Source: Planctomycetota bacterium (GTDB lineage: Bacteria > Planctomycetota > Phycisphaerae > Phycisphaerales > UBA5793). Taken from it: a stretch of 35,707 nt of DNA. Below the pieces are notes generated by a model. That model worked only from the letters and a program-made list of their open reading frames with translations, was not told where the DNA came from and ran no database searches. The translations under genes and the position numbers were made by a program. The stretch spans positions 1 to 35,707 of the forward strand of contig CAUJHZ010000009.1 of the NCBI GenBank assembly GCA_963205185.1. Reading direction: 5' to 3'. Within the stretch, counting starts at the first letter, position 1. Each line of letters starts with the position of its first letter. Positions 432 to 35,707 of the stretch are shown piece by piece.

Positions 432-1250
432 CTACGGCTCGACCGCCGCATCCCAGTAGGTCTCGACCGAGGCGAGCGAACTGTCCAGGCGACTGCTCGC
501 CTGCGCCACCTCCGTGCGGGCCCGTTCATTGCTGAGCAGCGTCGTCGTGCTCCCGCTCACCTGCTCGTTCCACTTGGCGCAGATGCGCTCTTCGTCGAGA
601 GCGTCGCGCAGCGTCACCAGATCCGAGTCGGTGCGCGACTCGACGAGGTGCTGCACGGGCAGTTCACGGAACACCGTGGCTCGATGAGCGCGGATGGCCG
701 TCAGGCGGGTGATCACCTCCGCCGCCAGGCCATCCACGCCGGCGTCGAAGACGCCATCGAGCGCGCTGTCGAGGCTGCGTCGATCGGAGTTCATCTCCGA
801 GCGCGCCGCAGCCAGGTCAATCAGATCCTGCTCGGTCCCCTTGCCCCGGCGCACGAGACGCTCGAGCGCCTCGTACTGCGCCTTGGACGCCCGCCAGTCC
901 GCTTCAACCACCGCCAGGGCCGTCCCGTGCTCCGTGAGATGGGTGCGCACCGCGCCCACCACCGCTTCGACGCCCAATTGGCTCGTCACCCCGGCCGCGG
1001 TCAGCGCCGACGGATCCAGGGCCACGCGCCGCAGCGTCGAATCGAGGGCAGGCTCAGTGAACATCAGAGCCCCGCCCGCCCACGCGGGCCGCAGCGACAG
1101 CGCCGTCGCCGAAGAGATGGACTTGGATGGAGCCCCGTTCGACGCGATGCGCGACGAGGCCGAGTGCACCGCCGCGGCGATGAGCACCACGAGAAGCGCG
1201 ACGGCGGCGGGAACCGTTACGAGATGACCGGATCGAAAGAAGCGTTGCAT
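432..1250 (-). CDS. Membrane-anchored helical protein of unknown function (gene X, left copy)
   Basis: 272 residues starting MQRFFRSGHL. The ATG is chosen because AAGGAG lies 7 bases upstream; an in-frame upstream ATG lacks a ribosome site. Residues about 11-30 form one hydrophobic segment (signal anchor or uncleaved signal peptide). The rest is Ala/Glu/Arg rich and predicted helical, with charged coiled-coil-like stretches around 120-170 and 220-265. There is a single Cys in the mature part (ERICAKW). No known domain is recognised. It is transcribed divergently from gspD and duplicated at 34453-35271 with about 94% identity, mostly conservative changes clustered in residues 35-55, so both copies look under protein-level selection. 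A link with secretion is suggested only by the shared regulatory region. Confidence 0.85.
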   Translation of the reverse strand: MQRFFRSGHLVTVPAAVALLVVLIAAAVHSASSRIASNGAPSKSISSATALSLRPAWAGGALMFTEPALDSTLRRVALDPSALTAAGVTSQLGVEAVVGAVRTHLTEHGTALAVVEADWRASKAQYEALERLVRRGKGTEQDLIDLAAARSEMNSDRRSLDSALDGVFDAGVDGLAAEVITRLTAIRAHRATVFRELPVQHLVESRTDSDLVTLRDALDEERICAKWNEQVSGSTTTLLSNERARTEVAQASSRLDSSLASVETYWDAAVEP

Positions 1251-1308: not shown

Positions 1309-1336
1309 AATATACCGCCTGTGCATAGCGCCGCAA
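1309..1336 (-). promoter_or_regulatory. Promoter of gene X (left copy), -35 TTGCGG / -10 TATATT
   Basis: On the minus strand TTGCGG (1336-1331) and TATATT (1314-1309) are separated by 16 bp. A start near 1302 would give a leader of about 50 bases with AAGGAG before the ATG. The spacer contains CTATGCAC, and a second CTCTGCAC lies just upstream at 1350-1343, so the same 8-bp motif occurs as two direct copies 22 bp apart around the -35 box. The whole arrangement is conserved in the right copy. Confidence 0.6.
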
Positions 1337-1732
1337 GGGCATGTGCAGAGTTTACCCGGTGTCTATTACATGTTCAGCAACAGAGTGCGAACACGACCCG
1401 CCGCAACCGCCGCAAGTGCCCAGCCCGCCACGGCCTGCGCGAGGCCGCGCGTATTTAATACAGCGAATGGAACCGGGCAATTGATTCGCCGTCGAATCGG
1501 TCGCAAGTGCAGAGCTGCACACATCTTGCGCGCCGGAACGAAAATACCCGAAAAAGTCGAAAGAATCTTCTCGCCCCTGACCCGATCGGGGGAAGAAGAG
1601 CCTCCCGCGAAGGCCCGACGGCTCGCGACAGGCCCTCAATCCTGCGGCCATCTGGTTCTCTCGCCCCCCCGTGCAGAGTTCCGCCGGCCCCCAAGTGGTC
1701 TGTGCGTGCATAGCGCCGACGACACTCTGCAC
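1321..1732. promoter_or_regulatory. Cluster of six GTGCA(T/G)AG operator-like sites
   Basis: Seen directly: GTGCATAG at 1321-1328 and 1706-1713; GTGCAGAG at 1343-1350, 1507-1514 and 1671-1678; the complement CTCTGCAC at 1725-1732. The sites at 1706-1713 and 1725-1732 form an inverted pair inside a 27-bp block that is identical in the right copy although flanking bases have changed. Six copies of a near-identical octamer in 412 bp is far above chance. A dimeric regulator controlling both X and gspD is the simplest reading; its identity is unknown. Confidence 0.6.
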
Positions 1733-1794
1733 GCCATCTGCACAATCTTCCGCATCAATCGCCGAATCCCGCCCCCGGCGACCCCGCCATGCGG

Positions 1795-1809
1795 TATGAT
1801 CAACGCATG
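1795..1809 (+). promoter_or_regulatory. TATGAT -10 element placing a leaderless start on gspD
   Basis: TATGAT at 1795-1800 is followed by six bases and then ATG at 1807. A transcript starting the usual 6-7 bases after the -10 would begin at this ATG, giving a leaderless mRNA. No Shine-Dalgarno precedes any of the three early ATGs. No -35 hexamer is visible, which fits activation from the octamer pair 74 bp upstream. The TATGAT-N6-ATG string is identical in the right copy. Confidence 0.5.
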
Positions 1810-4077
1810 ACCTCCCGCTTCACCCGCCCCATGTCCCACCGCATCGCCCTCGCTTGCATACTCGCCGCCGCCGCCGGACTCAGCAACGCAGTCCCGGCGG
1901 GCGGCGCCATGAGCGCCGGAAGCGGCGCTGTGCAGGAAGCGCAGCCGCCCGGTGAAAGCATTCAGTTGCAGGGCGAGATCGACCTACCGCGTCTCGTCGA
2001 TCTCTGCGCCAAGAGACTCGATCTCACCATCGAGTACGACGCGACGGTCCTCAAGGGCAAGGTCACGCTGCGACTCACTGAGACACTCACCGATGAACAG
2101 CTCTGGGATCTGACGAATCGAGTCCTGGGACTGCGCGGGTTCACCACCGTCGGACTGCCCGGCGAAGACGGCCAGACGGTGCTGAGTGTGGTGCGGCTGG
2201 CCGATGCGGCCGGTCTGGCGCCGGCGACATCAACGGAAGAACTCTCCGACCGCGCCGGCTTCGTCGCGGTAGTGCGCCGCCTGAAGCACCAGAGCGCCAA
2301 GGACATCGTCGAAGGCCTCAAGGTCGTCCTCTCCAAACCTGGCGGATCCGTCGCGGCATTGGGTGAGGATCTGATCTTCATCGCCGATCTGCGTCCGCGC
2401 GTGGATGAGGCGCTGGCGGTGCTCAGTGAGATGGACCGGGCCGGGCACGATTCGATCGTGGAGCGCATCGAGCTGAAGCACCTCCCCGCCACCCGCCTGG
2501 CCGCCGTGCTCACTTCAGTCGCCGCGGCCCAGGACGCCGTCGAAGGTCACACGTCGACTGGCAAGGTCATCGCCGAAGCAGGCGACCGGGCGGTCGTTCT
2601 CATCGCGCCGGCTTCACAGGCCAATACATGGCGCGATCTCATCGAACGCTTCGACCAGCTTCCACCTGTCGAGACGCGCACCTACAGCCCGCGCTACTTC
2701 GGGCTTGATGAAGTCGCGGCCCTGATCGAGCAGACGGTCAAGCCCGCCGGCGCGGCCGGAGAGCAGTGGCGGCTGGTGCGCGATGAACTCACCGGCTCGA
2801 TCATCCTCACGGCTGCGCCCGATCAGCACGAGCAGACGCAGGCGCTTGTCGATCGCCTCAATGCCGTGCCCGTCGAGTCGCGGCGGCCGATGCGAAGTTT
2901 CCAGGTGCGCAACCGGCCGGTTGCGGAAGTGATTGGCGTGCTCGAGCGGCTGCTGAGCGCGGGGGTGATCACCGACGCCGCCGCTGCAGGCGAATCGCAG
3001 TTGAGTTCGACCAGTCTCGCGGACTCCGCCATTCCGCCCGATGCGCCACGCGCAGTGCCGGGCACCGAGCCCCGGCCAACGCCAGCCGAGCCCGCAAGCG
3101 GGCGCGACAGTGGAGCAGTGCACTCAGCCAAGCCTCAGCGCGACTCCGAAACACCCGCCCTCACACTCACGGCCGACGAAGCGACGAGCACGATCATCGC
3201 CATGGGCGATCCGCGGCTGCTCGACCAGGTGCGCCGGCTCATCGATGAACTCGATGTCCGCCAGCCGCAAGTCATGGTCGAGATCCTCATCGTCAGCCTC
3301 AGCGACAGCCAGACGCTCGATCTCGGCGTCGAACTGGAGAAGATCGAAGTCAGTGGAGACGTGCGCATCACGCTCTCCTCGCTTTTTGGTCTGAGCAGCC
3401 TCACCGATGGCATCCGCAGCGTCGGCAATGCGCGCGGCGGCAGCGCGCTGGTGCTCAGTCCCGGCGACTTCAGCGTCGTCGTGCGCGCCCTCGAGACGGT
3501 CAACGACGGCCGCTCGCTCAACGTGCCGCGCGTGCTGGTGAACAACAACCAGCAGGCGTCGCTCAACTCCGTGCTCCAGCAGCCCTTTGTGAGCATCAAC
3601 GCCTTTGACACGATCGCGACGACTTCGTTCGGCGGGACGCAGGATGCGGGGACGGTCGTCACCGTCAAGCCGCAGATCGCCGAGGGTGATCACCTCATCG
3701 TGGACTACTCGGTCACACTTAGCGCGTTCGTGGGTGAGTCGGCGGACCCGTCGCTGCCGCCGCCGCGCCAGGAGAACCGGCTGCAGAGCGTGGCGACGAT
3801 TCCCGACGGCTACGTCGTGGCCTTGGGGGGCATCGAGGTGACGAATCAATCAAAGGGCGTGTCGCAGGTGCCCGGCCTGGCGGGGATTCCCATCGTGGGC
3901 GAACTCTTCAAGAACCGCTCGCGCACCGAAAGCCGCAGCCGCTTCTACATCTTCATTCGCCCCTCGGTCCTCCGGCGCCTGGACTTCGAGGATCTGCGCT
4001 ACCTGAGCGAAGCGCCGATGGAAGCTAGCGGAATTGATGACGGCTGGCCCGTGGTCGAGCCGCGCGTGATTCACTGA
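1807..4077 (+). CDS. gspD: Type II secretion secretin GspD
   Basis: 756 residues. It forms the outer-membrane channel of the type II secretion system. A signal peptide with hydrophobic core ALACILAAAAGLSNA is followed by N-domains: an N0-like fold at about 50-130, then N1-N3-like repeats (LKHQSAKDIVEGL, IELKHLPATRLAAVL, FQVRNRPVAEVIGVLERLL). A Pro/Ser/Thr-rich insertion sits in the last N-domain around 395-450. The C-terminal secretin domain follows, with VPRVLVNNNQQASL, VTVKPQI and the signature VPGLAGIPIVGELFKNRS near the end. The ATG at 1807 is preferred over 1789 because of the leaderless promoter. It is the first gene of an operon running to 12119; gspE follows after 13 bp. An N-terminal fragment is duplicated at 33891. 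Confidence 0.95.
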   Translation: MTSRFTRPMSHRIALACILAAAAGLSNAVPAGGAMSAGSGAVQEAQPPGESIQLQGEIDLPRLVDLCAKRLDLTIEYDATVLKGKVTLRLTETLTDEQLWDLTNRVLGLRGFTTVGLPGEDGQTVLSVVRLADAAGLAPATSTEELSDRAGFVAVVRRLKHQSAKDIVEGLKVVLSKPGGSVAALGEDLIFIADLRPRVDEALAVLSEMDRAGHDSIVERIELKHLPATRLAAVLTSVAAAQDAVEGHTSTGKVIAEAGDRAVVLIAPASQANTWRDLIERFDQLPPVETRTYSPRYFGLDEVAALIEQTVKPAGAAGEQWRLVRDELTGSIILTAAPDQHEQTQALVDRLNAVPVESRRPMRSFQVRNRPVAEVIGVLERLLSAGVITDAAAAGESQLSSTSLADSAIPPDAPRAVPGTEPRPTPAEPASGRDSGAVHSAKPQRDSETPALTLTADEATSTIIAMGDPRLLDQVRRLIDELDVRQPQVMVEILIVSLSDSQTLDLGVELEKIEVSGDVRITLSSLFGLSSLTDGIRSVGNARGGSALVLSPGDFSVVVRALETVNDGRSLNVPRVLVNNNQQASLNSVLQQPFVSINAFDTIATTSFGGTQDAGTVVTVKPQIAEGDHLIVDYSVTLSAFVGESADPSLPPPRQENRLQSVATIPDGYVVALGGIEVTNQSKGVSQVPGLAGIPIVGELFKNRSRTESRSRFYIFIRPSVLRRLDFEDLRYLSEAPMEASGIDDGWPVVEPRVIH

Positions 4078-27743: not shown

Positions 27744-28006
27744 GAGTGCCTTCCTCCTCGGTGCAGCGTTGTGCCAGATGAAGTGTCTTCTGCTGCACGC
27801 GAGCAAGGAGTACAGCAGGCCGCAAGCGGATCCAGAACGGACCGACTCATCTTAGCAGCCTTGAGGAGTAAAGGCATCAGCCATCCGCCGAGGACTGATC
27901 AGCTCTCACCACGGCGCACTGCGAGCGCGGAGGCACTGGGGGTGACTATGCACCGCCGCCCTGGGAAACCTCGGGCCGCATCAACGACGGGGGACCCCCG
28001 GCCTGC
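27744..28006. other. Gap between two minus-strand small genes
   Basis: 263 bases without a supported ORF. On the minus strand TAAGAT occurs near 27853-27858, about 110 bases upstream of the 27743 start, and is a possible -10 element for the basic protein gene. No matching -35 was found. Confidence 0.3.
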
Positions 28007-28228
28007 TCAATCCGGCTCCCGTATGTCCGGCAGCCACGAACCCGGCTCTTCCGCCTCGGACTCCCAGGGAGCATCCAAGCGCAGCCCCTTGATCTGAATG
28101 TCCAAGCGGGCCAGCTTCTTGAGTATCGTGGCGCGCCGGGCGCGGAGGAGTCCGAGGCGGCGCAAATTCCTTGGATCCATCGGCCTGGCCTTCTCGCGGT
28201 CGCTTTGACGTTTGCTGCTCCTCTTCAC
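28007..28228 (-). CDS. Small basic protein of unknown function
   Basis: 73 residues from a GTG at 28228 preceded by AAGGAGGTG at good spacing. The sequence is MKRSSKRQSDREKAR, then a helical LRRLGLLRARRATILKKLARLDIQIKG split by basic residues, then an acidic/Trp tail (DAPWESEAEEPGSWLPD). Lys/Arg-rich with an amphipathic helix and no known domain. It is next to another basic protein gene on the same strand, so a nucleic-acid-binding role is plausible but unproven. Confidence 0.6.
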   Translation of the reverse strand: MKRSSKRQSDREKARPMDPRNLRRLGLLRARRATILKKLARLDIQIKGLRLDAPWESEAEEPGSWLPDIREPD

Positions 28229-28690
28229 GGCACACCTCCTTCTGTGGGCCTCCAGCCCCGCCGGGCGGGCTGCATCGCGCCGCCGGGGGAACTCAGTTCG
28301 ACCAGACATGCGGGCGGGAGCGGCGAGAGGCCGCCTCGATTCCGACCGCAGGGGTACATAGACTGGAGTATGCACGGGTTGTCAGAGGATGGTGCGAATC
28401 GGGCCCGTCCCCGGCCGGTATGACCTGTGCAGAGCGGGGCGCCGCAGGTGCGGCCGTGCGTGCCACCGAGCCTTCCGTATGGGAACGGAAGGCGGTGCGG
28501 AACCTGGAGTTGTGCGGTCCCATCAATCGAAGCCTCGCGGCGTGCGGGCGCCGGCTCCTGGCTGAACCGAGCCCGCCGCAATACAACGGCCGCAAAGGGC
28601 GCTGCCGACTGCGCGGATTCTTGAGGATTCCTGGCAAAAATCCTCGCAACATGCCCTGTTCGCTGCGTTCGCCTTCTGGGAGATGACACC
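28229..28690. promoter_or_regulatory. Upstream region of the sigma factor operon
   Basis: 462 bases between divergent genes, with no supported ORF. Two details stand out. A perfect palindrome GAGGATT-N9-AATCCTC sits at 28623-28645, about 45 bases before the sigma factor start, and could be an operator or leader hairpin. The octamer GTGCAGAG, identical to the sites of the terminal repeats, occurs at 28427-28434. Clear -35/-10 elements were not found, which is expected if the ECF factor recognises its own non-standard promoter. Confidence 0.45.
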
Positions 28691-33390: not shown

Positions 33391-33618
33391 TCAGCTGTCG
33401 GCGCTGGCGCGGCGAAGCGCGCCGCGGCGTTGCATGTCGTCCATGAGCCGGCGCCGGCCCTGATCAAGCCATCGCTCGATGTCCGCTCTTTGGAAACTCC
33501 AGTCTCCGTCAATGCGTTCCGCGGGAATGCAGCGTTGCTCAGCGAGCTGTTGGACGACCGTCTCCGGCAGGCGAAGGAGCGCGCTCAGTTCGGTGATCGT
33601 GCAGGTTCCGCGGCTCAT
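33391..33618 (-). CDS. Excisionase/MerR-like helix-turn-helix protein
   Basis: 75 residues with GGAGG six bases before the ATG. The sequence CTITELSALLRLPETVVQQLAEQRCIPAERIDGDWSFQRADIERWLDQ is the short winged HTH of the excisionase/AlpA-like family (HTH_17 type): a helix-turn-helix then the W-F-x-x-x-D-I-x-x-W-L signature. Such proteins act as DNA-bending excision factors or small regulators. It lies 12 bp downstream of the truncated gspD ORF and in the same direction, so it is probably expressed from the duplicated gspD promoter. Confidence 0.82.
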   Translation of the reverse strand: MSRGTCTITELSALLRLPETVVQQLAEQRCIPAERIDGDWSFQRADIERWLDQGRRRLMDDMQRRGALRRASADS

Positions 33619-33630
33619 CGGGCCTCCGTG

Positions 33631-33891
33631 TCAGCCCTTGCCCCAATGGCCTGAGGCGCACTTGGCGGAAGCAGGAGCGCCTCCCGGCCCTCGGGGGGAC
33701 GGGGCCAGGAGGCCTCGCTGCAACAAAGGGGTTCGCTGCTGGCGTTGCGTGTAGATCTGCTCCTCCGGCTGCGCCTCCTGCTCAGCGCTGCGACCGCTGA
33801 CATTGACGCCGCCGGTCGCTGCGGCCCGGCTGAGTCCGGCTGCGGCAAGCAGTATGCACGCGAGGGACATGGGGCGGGTGAGGCGGGTCAT
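33631..33891 (-). pseudogene. Truncated gspD start joined to unrelated sequence
   Basis: 86 codons from the ATG at 33891 (an upstream in-frame ATG at 33909 matches the 1789 one). Residues 1 to about 50 (MTRLTRPMSLACILLAAAGLSRA, then EQEAQPEEQ) align with the GspD signal peptide and early mature part. After that the sequence is unrelated, low-complexity and Pro/Gly/Arg rich (RGLLAPSPRGPGGAPAS) to a stop. All secretin domains are missing. It could be a dead fragment or a new small secreted peptide; promoter and signal peptide are both intact. Confidence 0.8.
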
Positions 33892-33897
33892 GCGTTG

Positions 33898-33903
33898 ATC
33901 ATA
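33898..33903 (-). promoter_or_regulatory. Duplicated leaderless-type -10 element (TATGAT)
   Basis: On the minus strand TATGAT is followed by six bases and the ATG at 33891, exactly as at 1795-1809. It would now direct transcription of the truncated gspD ORF and the HTH gene behind it. Confidence 0.48.
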
Positions 33904-33965
33904 CCGCATGGGAGGGTCGCCGGGGGCGGGATTCGGGGATCGGGGATGAAGATTGTGCAGATTGC

Positions 33966-34381
33966 GTGCAGAGTGTCGTCGGCGCTATGCACGCGGACGG
34001 CCTGCGGACCCTGCGGGACTCTGCACGGGGGACCGGTGGAGACTGCCGGAAGCCCGCGGCCTGAGCGCCGGTCCTGCGGCGTGCAGGGTCTCTGAACCGT
34101 CTCTTCTCCCCCGATCGGGTCAGTGGCGGGGAGGAATCTTCTCACTTTTTCGGGTATTTTCGTTCCGCAGCGCAAGGCGTGTGCAGCTCGGCACTTGCGG
34201 CCGATTCCGCGGCGGATCAATTGCCCGGTTCCATTCGATGTATTAATTACGCGCGGCCTCGCGCAGGGCTTGGCGGGCCCGGCACTTGCGGCGGTTCGCG
34301 ACGGGTCGTGTTCGCACTCTGTTGCTGAACATGTAATAGACACCGGCAAAACTCTGCACATCCCCTTGCGGCGCTATGCAC
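33966..34381. promoter_or_regulatory. Operator-like octamer cluster, right copy
   Basis: GTGCAGAG at 33966-33973; CTATGCAC at 33985-33992; CTCTGCAC at 34019-34026 and 34352-34359; CTATGCAC at 34374-34381. A sixth site corresponding to 1507-1514 is degenerate here (GTGCCGAG sense). The pair 33966-33992 is identical over 27 bp to 1706-1732 and lies at the same 74-bp distance from the start codon. The last two sites flank and enter the X promoter as direct copies 22 bp apart. Confidence 0.6.
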
Positions 34382-34393
34382 AGTCGGTATATT
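34366..34393 (+). promoter_or_regulatory. Promoter of gene X (right copy), -35 TTGCGG / -10 TATATT
   Basis: TTGCGG at 34366-34371 and TATATT at 34388-34393 with a 16-bp spacer containing CTATGCAC. Same geometry as the left copy, with only one changed base inside the spacer. Confidence 0.6.
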
Positions 34394-34452
34394 GGGGACG
34401 GGTCGCGGGCGAGGCGCCCGTCGGCCGGAACTCGTGCCGCAAGGAGATCGCC

Positions 34453-35271
34453 ATGCAACGCTTCTTTCGATCCGGTCATCTGGTGACGGTTCCCGCCGCC
34501 GTCGCGCTTCTCGTGGTGCTGGTCGCCGCGGCGGTGCACTCGGCCTCGTCGCGGCTGAGCTCGAGCGGCCCTTCACCCAAGTCGATCCCTTCGGCGGCGG
34601 CGCTGTCGTTGCGGCCGGCGTGGGCTGGCGGGGCTCTGGCCTTTACTGAACCCGCCCTCGATTCGACGCTGCGGCGCGTGGCCCTGGATCCGTCGGCGCT
34701 GACCGCGGCCGGGGTGACGAGCCAATTGGGCGTCGAAGCGGTGGTCGGCGCGGTGCGCACCCATCTCACTGAGCACGGCACGGCCCTGTCTGTGGTTGAA
34801 GCGGACTGGCGGGCGTCCAAGGCGCAGTACGCGGCGCTCGATCGTCTCGTGCGCCGGGGCAAGGGGACGGAGCAGGATCTGATTGACCTGGCTGCGGCGC
34901 GCTCGGAGATGAACTCCGATCGAAGCAGCCTCGATAGCGCGCTCGATGGCGTCTTCGACGCCGGCGTGGATGGCCTGACGGCGGAGGTGATCACCCGCTT
35001 GACGGCCATCCGCGCTCATCGAGCCACGGTGTTCCGTGAACTGCCGGTGCAGCACCTCGTCGAGTCGCGCACCGACAGCGACCTCGTGACGCTGCGCGAT
35101 GCTCTCGACGAAGAGCGCATCTGCGCCAAGTGGAACGAGCAGGTCAGCGGCAACACGACGACGCTGCTCAGTAACGAACGGGCCCGCACGGAGGTGGCGC
35201 AGGCGAGCAGTCGCCTGGACAGTTCGCTCGCCTCGGTCGAGACCTACTGGGATGCGGCGGTCGAGCCGTAA
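34453..35271 (+). CDS. Membrane-anchored helical protein of unknown function (gene X, right copy)
   Basis: 272 residues, same length as the left copy and about 94% identical by eye count. AAGGAG precedes the ATG. Differences cluster just after the membrane anchor (RLSSSGPSPKSIPSAAALS against RIASNGAPSKSISSATALS); the rest has isolated changes such as E to A or R to S. Hydrophobic anchor at 11-30, helical body, single Cys in ERICAKW, C-terminus SVETYWDAAVEP. Both copies are intact, so they may have overlapping or specialised roles. Confidence 0.85.
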   Translation: MQRFFRSGHLVTVPAAVALLVVLVAAAVHSASSRLSSSGPSPKSIPSAAALSLRPAWAGGALAFTEPALDSTLRRVALDPSALTAAGVTSQLGVEAVVGAVRTHLTEHGTALSVVEADWRASKAQYAALDRLVRRGKGTEQDLIDLAAARSEMNSDRSSLDSALDGVFDAGVDGLTAEVITRLTAIRAHRATVFRELPVQHLVESRTDSDLVTLRDALDEERICAKWNEQVSGNTTTLLSNERARTEVAQASSRLDSSLASVETYWDAAVEP

Positions 35272-35307
35272 CAGGAGCGGCTGAGCCGGGCCGCGCTGTC
35301 CTCACGG

Positions 35308-35360
35308 ACCTCTCCTCCGCGCACCGGCTCGCACTGGTCATCGAGATCACCGGGAGAGGT
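35308..35360 (+). other. Conserved long-arm inverted repeat between X and Y (right)
   Basis: ACCTCTCC at 35308-35315 and GGAGAGGT at 35353-35360, matching the left copy at 344-396 in arms and spacing. It sits in the 144-bp spacer before gene Y. Confidence 0.35.
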
Positions 35361-35415
35361 CTGCACGTTGGGCTCGCATCGGGCGGAGCCCGGATGACAG
35401 GAACGAGGGATTGTC

Positions 35416-35707
35416 ATGAACGCACGTCACACGAACCACGCGGCCGCATCGAATCATCCCACCTCCACCCTGACCCCCACGACCCCCACGCTGATCTCCA
35501 CTGAGGCTGCAGTGAAGGGATCGCGGCGGCGCCGGCGCTGGCTTCAACCCCTCGCGCCCTCAGTGCTGGCTGCCTGCGCCCTCGCTCCGGTTCTTCTCGG
35601 GGCGAGTGCGCGCAGCGCCTGGGGCGACACGGTGCTGCAGACGCATGATCCGGCGCTGACGACGTACCTCAGTACGAGCAAGTCGCTCGTGCAGGATGTG
35701 CGGCCGC
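35416..35707 (+). CDS. Secreted protein of unknown function (gene Y, right copy), 3' end missing
   Basis: 97 codons visible, cut by the window edge at the same codon as the left copy. It begins MNARHTNHAAASNHPTS, followed by a Thr/Pro stretch, RRRRRW and a hydrophobic segment ending SARSAWG, consistent with a signal peptide. The mature start GDTVLQTHDPALTTYLS is identical to the left copy. A GAGGGA-like site precedes the ATG. Function unknown. Confidence 0.7.
   Translation, partial: MNARHTNHAAASNHPTSTLTPTTPTLISTEAAVKGSRRRRRWLQPLAPSVLAACALAPVLLGASARSAWGDTVLQTHDPALTTYLSTSKSLVQDVRP

Follow-up and report, generated by a model that had tools for sequence, protein, structure and literature searches.

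Clustered octamers between gene X and gspD of a Planctomycetota bacterium: putative operators of a single locus

In a Planctomycetota bacterium, gene X and the divergent gspD, which heads a type II secretion operon, are separated by non-coding DNA in which a short word, GTGCA(T/G)AG, is repeated; the question is what the word does there. Six exact copies were found within positions 1321-1732 of the window, which is the whole stretch of 35,707 nucleotides analyzed, and a near-copy follows them. The initial annotation had read the word as a candidate motif of a new regulon. How type II secretion is regulated in planctomycetes appears to be little described, and a full-text search of one literature collection for Planctomycetes together with gspD, promoter and type II secretion yielded no paper. 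If the sites are real, they offer a concrete probe with which the first regulator of this secretion system, present in multiple copies, might be found in uncultured bacteria of the Phycisphaerales type; they would also exemplify how fast operators can turn over from one paralogous operon to another.

Octamers and predicted promoters in the X/gspD intergenic region

All of these sites lie in non-coding DNA of the X/gspD intergenic region, which is part of the left arm of an inverted repeat. The features of this arm and of gspD are as follows; G001 is the relative in which an orthologous region was found.

432-1250, minus strand: gene X, 272 aa, with an N-terminal membrane or signal segment
1309-1336, minus strand: predicted X promoter P1, TTGCGG (1336-1331), 16 bp, TATATT (1314-1309)
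1321-1328, plus strand: site 1, GTGCATAG (TGTGCATAGCGCCG); identical in the right arm, absent from the G001 ortholog
1343-1350, plus strand: site 2, GTGCAGAG; the same in the right arm, absent from the G001 ortholog
1363-1391, minus strand: predicted X promoter P2, TTCGCA (1391-1386), 17 bp, TAATAG (1368-1363)
1507-1514, plus strand: site 3, GTGCAGAG inside GTGCAGAGCTGCAC; lost in the right arm, which reads GTGCCGAG
1671-1678, plus strand: site 4, GTGCAGAG; retained where the repeat has drifted most
1706-1713, plus strand: site 5, GTGCATAGCGCCG; 13 bases common to sites 5 and 1
1725-1732, minus strand: site 6, GTGCAGAG; forms the inverted pair with site 5
1736-1743, minus strand: site 7, GTGCAGAT, a near-copy with one mismatch; present in both arms
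1795-1806, plus strand: predicted gspD -10 element, TATGAT, with the ATG directly after it at 1807 (leaderless-type start) and no clear -35; present in G001
1807-4077, plus strand: gspD secretin gene, heading the type II secretion operon and followed by gspE, gspF and gspG

Promoters P1 and P2 and the gspD -10 element were predicted from sequence and conservation; a consensus sigma-70 scan of the region gave no match. The octamers overlap or adjoin these elements. Site 1 is located inside the 16-bp spacer between the two P1 hexamers. Site 2 starts 22 bp after site 1, forming a direct pair with it, and adjoins the P1 -35 on its upstream side. Sites 5 and 6 make up a 27-bp block (1706-1732) whose end lies 74 bp before the gspD ATG, and site 7 starts 11 bp from site 6 in the left and right arm alike. 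The spacings are 11 bp (sites 6/7) and 22 bp (sites 1/2) in direct orientation, the others being 19 (inverted) and 35 bp. The six octamers, the direct pair over the X promoter and the inverted pair ahead of gspD were all found just as the initial annotation describes them.

Gene X had no match in Pfam or NCBIfam. Profile comparison by hhalign showed homology (probability 98.5%) between X and the X'' proteins, whose genes immediately precede gspD in sister species, which makes X a gspD-associated gene. The X family, which is unnamed, adjoins gspD in several planctomycete genomes and is a candidate accessory component of the secretion system.

Clustering of the octamer and its conservation between the repeat arms

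The whole window contains 14 octamers against 2.5 expected, and none of 100 shuffles got to 14. When positions 1251-1806 were shuffled alone, 0.022 octamers were expected, and six were reached in none of 4000 shuffles. Allowing any octamer with one twofold-degenerate position, at least six copies arose in 13 of 1500 shuffles (corrected P ~0.009). Since the octamer was chosen because it is conspicuous, this value of approximately 0.9%, under free word choice, is the fairer significance figure. The copies are clustered non-randomly, and significantly so, in non-coding DNA that separates two divergent genes; the cluster is a real, moderately unusual sequence feature.

It is possible, but doubtful, that the cluster has no regulatory role, having arisen fortuitously or from small local duplications (e.g., the GTGCATAGCGCCG common to sites 1 and 5) that a recent inverted duplication then copied. 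That about 1% of shuffles yield six of some one-degenerate octamer, with the word picked for its conspicuousness, speaks for such an origin. However, little flank is common beyond pairs of sites, and both orientations occur. The comparison of the two repeat arms also bears on this, and the corresponding features of the right arm are listed below.

33766-35707, minus strand: right arm of the inverted repeat (1.9 kb), 88% identical to 1-1947
33966-33992, no strand assigned: inverted pair of sites 5 and 6, 27 bp, identical to 1706-1732
34019-34026, minus strand: copy of site 4
34352-34359, minus strand: copy of site 2
34374-34381, minus strand: copy of site 1
34453-35268, plus strand: second copy of X

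The right arm retains five of the six octamers as well as the near-copy at site 7, so the proposed conservation in both repeat copies holds with one exception, the copy at 1507. Identical site columns between the arms numbered 47 of 48, compared with a mean of 37.9 for random octamers nearby (P = 0.002), and the survival of five or more intact octamers had a P of 0.015. The suggestion that the sites were kept while their surroundings drifted agrees with these column counts, but clear drift was observed only around 1671: this site alone sits in a truly drifted segment (50–62% identity between arms), and the remaining sites sit in stretches that are already 88–96% identical. A fortuitous cluster would fit the fact that the stretches holding most sites are 90% identical anyway; the retention of the 1671 site in a segment otherwise 50–62% identical argues against it. 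Gene conversion may homogenize inverted arms. Because most sites lie in approximately 90% identical stretches and gene conversion is possible, arm conservation constitutes moderate evidence.

The right arm carries the second copy of X and a truncated gspD start. As it drives the truncated gspD only, selection for secretion cannot act on its conserved sites, whose conservation may be explicable by gene conversion or recent duplication. A search of the bacterium's own genome found no third copy of the region. The window ends, 1-141 and 35567-35707, are inverted and identical over exactly 141 bp and then diverge; this exact identity fits a k = 141 assembly graph breaking within a larger inverted repeat, and the true repeat probably continues beyond the contig.

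The arm comparison also bears on a possible function in RNA, in which sites 4 and 6 would pair as a 10-bp stem (CGUGCAGAGU/ACUCUGCACG) in the gspD leader and control transcription or translation. The 10 bp are perfect in both arms despite a drifted loop. The folding was unremarkable (z = -1.85 and -1.18), however, and there was no Rfam match. Moreover, since the conserved -10 lies downstream of this segment, directly before the ATG, the stem would lie upstream of the main transcript. With sites 1, 2, 3 and 7 also left unexplained, we consider this function highly unlikely.

Distribution of the octamer in the genome and in relatives

Genome-wide analyses were pattern searches of the 4.55-Mb assembly (76 contigs). 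The octamer occurred 148 times, compared with 145 for the reversed control (coding and intergenic DNA pooled), and GTGCATAG alone occurred 17 times, compared with 55 for its control. Direct and inverted pairs with gaps of up to 32 bp were confined to the two arms, except for one pair with 13-bp spacing inside a coding gene that is duplicated; close pairs were found nowhere else in the non-coding DNA of the genome. The background counts and the lack of other non-coding pairs give no sign of a regulon built on the octamer. A genome-wide regulon controlled via GTGCAKAG pairs, as the initial annotation proposed, could point to the octamer cluster at two divergent promoters and to a weak second intergenic group before an ECF sigma factor/kinase operon (GTACATAG at 28354, GTGCATAC at 28368 on the minus strand and GTGCAGAG at 28427). 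Against it stand these counts, the restriction of pairs outside the arms to coding DNA of the duplicated gene, and the absence of the octamer before paralogous gspD operons described below; it is largely refuted and extremely unlikely. The frequency equal to that of the control also favors a fortuitous cluster.

When 60 relatives were searched for the region at the DNA level, chance matches alone were returned. A sequence-only model search across 120 relatives found one orthologous intergenic region, on contig C15 of G001. Its alignment keeps TTGCGG-16-TATATT (P1) and TTCGCA-17-TAATAG (P2, directed towards X, with a different spacer), GTAATTAATACA, and TATGAT abutting the gspD start codon. No octamer was present at its position in this ortholog, which is the only one found and represents one species. 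The initial annotation had named loss of the octamer in relatives that keep the promoters as evidence against its proposal, and this is the pattern in G001:C15; the absence is also what a fortuitous cluster would lead one to expect. The part most conserved between species (1305-1470 vs L093:26-190) comprises P1, P2 and GTAATTAATACA rather than the octamers.

One relocated GTGCATAG was found in the G001 ortholog (shuffle P = 0.027). The closest gspD relative (80% identity), on contig C37 of G003, has an X''-gspD operon, and the intergenic region before it contains an inverted pair of perfect TGTGCATAG (GTGCATAG), 66 bp apart, with one GTACATAG 25 bp ahead of the first word. The word occurs 16 times in the G003 genome, and the shuffle P of the inverted pair was 0.0005. 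Since about ten upstream regions were examined, the G003 and G001 values weaken to roughly 0.005–0.01 and 0.2, respectively. That this rare word independently forms an inverted pair before the gspD operon of a sister species argues against a fortuitous origin. Across 17 gspD upstream regions from a named genome collection, the octamer was at background density. An apparent enrichment of GTGCATAG on the gspD-bearing contigs of G001, G002 and G004 was rejected, the inspected copies being coding DNA.

The octamer was absent from the intergenic regions of four paralogous gspD operons (G001:C9, G002:C87, G002:C75 and G004:C28), which carry another word, TTGTGGATAA or a near form. Three X''-gspD promoters, L266 (G001:C9), L267 (G002:C75) and L269 (G002:C87), contain TGTGGATAA-N21-TTGACTT with identical spacing, and of the four TTGTGGATAA copies that the G002 genome holds, three precede gspD operons.

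The consensus of the DnaA box is TTATNCACA, and the sites might be degenerate elements of this kind, as TGTGCATAG resembles TGTGNATAA, from which it differs at one position. Such a relationship would be in line with the sister gspD operons, where TTGTGGATAA, an exact DnaA-box word, lies ahead of the promoter, with the promoter spacing and the G002 distribution given above. No octamer site in the window matched TTATNCACA exactly, however; the best, TGTGCATAG, had one mismatch, and most copies (GTGCAGAG) are off at two positions. In the bacterium's own genome, the TTGTGGATAA matches are single, without further boxes clustered around them. As the likeness was also spotted after the fact, we regard a DnaA-box origin of the sites as very unlikely.

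Putative local operators of X and gspD

The reading we favor, with a probability of about 0.5, is that a single sequence-specific DNA-binding protein, dedicated to the region of the divergent X and gspD promoters, uses the octamers as its operators. The chance that the octamers are real binding sites at all is likewise put at about one half, with chance or local duplication as the main rival. Six octamers and one near-copy, where ~0.02 would be expected, support operators, as do the site columns preserved between the arms, the placement of site 1 in the spacer of the conserved P1 and the GTGCATAG words upstream of gspD in G003 and G001. The preservation of the promoters but not of the octamer positions in the G001 ortholog counts against them, and so do the different word before paralogous gspD operons and the background density in other gspD relatives. 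As the sites turn over quickly between species, they would fit control confined to a single locus and not a regulon. Judged from sequence comparison, they are probably fast-turning-over, locus-private operators, and a regulon is not supported.

A protein bound at site 1, in the -35/-10 spacer of P1, and at site 2, upstream of P1 and downstream of the expected start of P2, would keep X from being transcribed. Bound at sites 4–7, approximately 67–133 bp upstream of the gspD promoter (a -10 whose -35 is not recognizable), it could also activate the secretion operon or tune its expression. Binding as dimers or as adjacent molecules would be in keeping with spacings of 19, 11 and 22 bp. The repressor geometry at X and the activator-compatible geometry at gspD are roles assigned from position. 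Co-control would make sense, given that gspD is partnered by X here and by its homolog X'' in sister species. The earlier idea of a regulator acting on X and the secretion operon is thus borne out as far as a clustered, operator-like set in a divergent region goes, and its action on the operon is deduced from where the sites lie.

Operator clusters controlled by one local transcription factor are a general bacterial arrangement in divergent intergenic regions. Here, similarly, clustered half-sites in both orientations extend over two divergent predicted promoters, one within a -35/-10 spacer and others ahead of a promoter that lacks a clear -35. Unlike in that arrangement, the octamer is not kept at its position in the single ortholog found. 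To our knowledge, the octamer matches no operator that can be named. Boxes of PhoB/OmpR-type response regulators are short direct repeats with 11- or 22-bp spacing, which is also the spacing of the direct repeats here at sites 6/7 and 1/2, respectively. The 19-bp inverted and 35-bp spacings differ from this pattern, and the response regulators within the window have receiver or HDOD domains only, with no DNA-binding domain.

No regulator gene was linked to the octamer sites. On the right arm (33391-33907, minus strand), the truncated gspD start, with an open frame of approximately 86 aa, is followed directly by a gene for a 75-aa HTH_17 (excisionase-like) protein, so the second copy of the gspD promoter may serve to express a small DNA-binding protein. 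Conceivably, though this is unlikely, a dedicated regulator of a new kind, which might be the HTH_17 protein (33391-33618, minus strand), recognizes GTGCAKAG and acts as a switch between X and the secretion operon; the gspD operons in the genus would then each have an operator word of their own (GTGCATAG or TTGTGGATAA).

A literature search for the octamer word returned unrelated papers only. Viral contigs contained no relatives of X and no match to the 27-mer, and their matches to GTACATAGNNTGGAGT are probably due to chance. The weaker group at 27946-28434, before the ECF sigma factor and Ser/Thr kinase pair, also includes GTGCATAG at 27946 on the minus strand, in addition to the GTACATAG, GTGCATAC and GTGCAGAG copies given above. 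The GTACATAGNNTGGAGT in this group is also present at G003:C37:89733.
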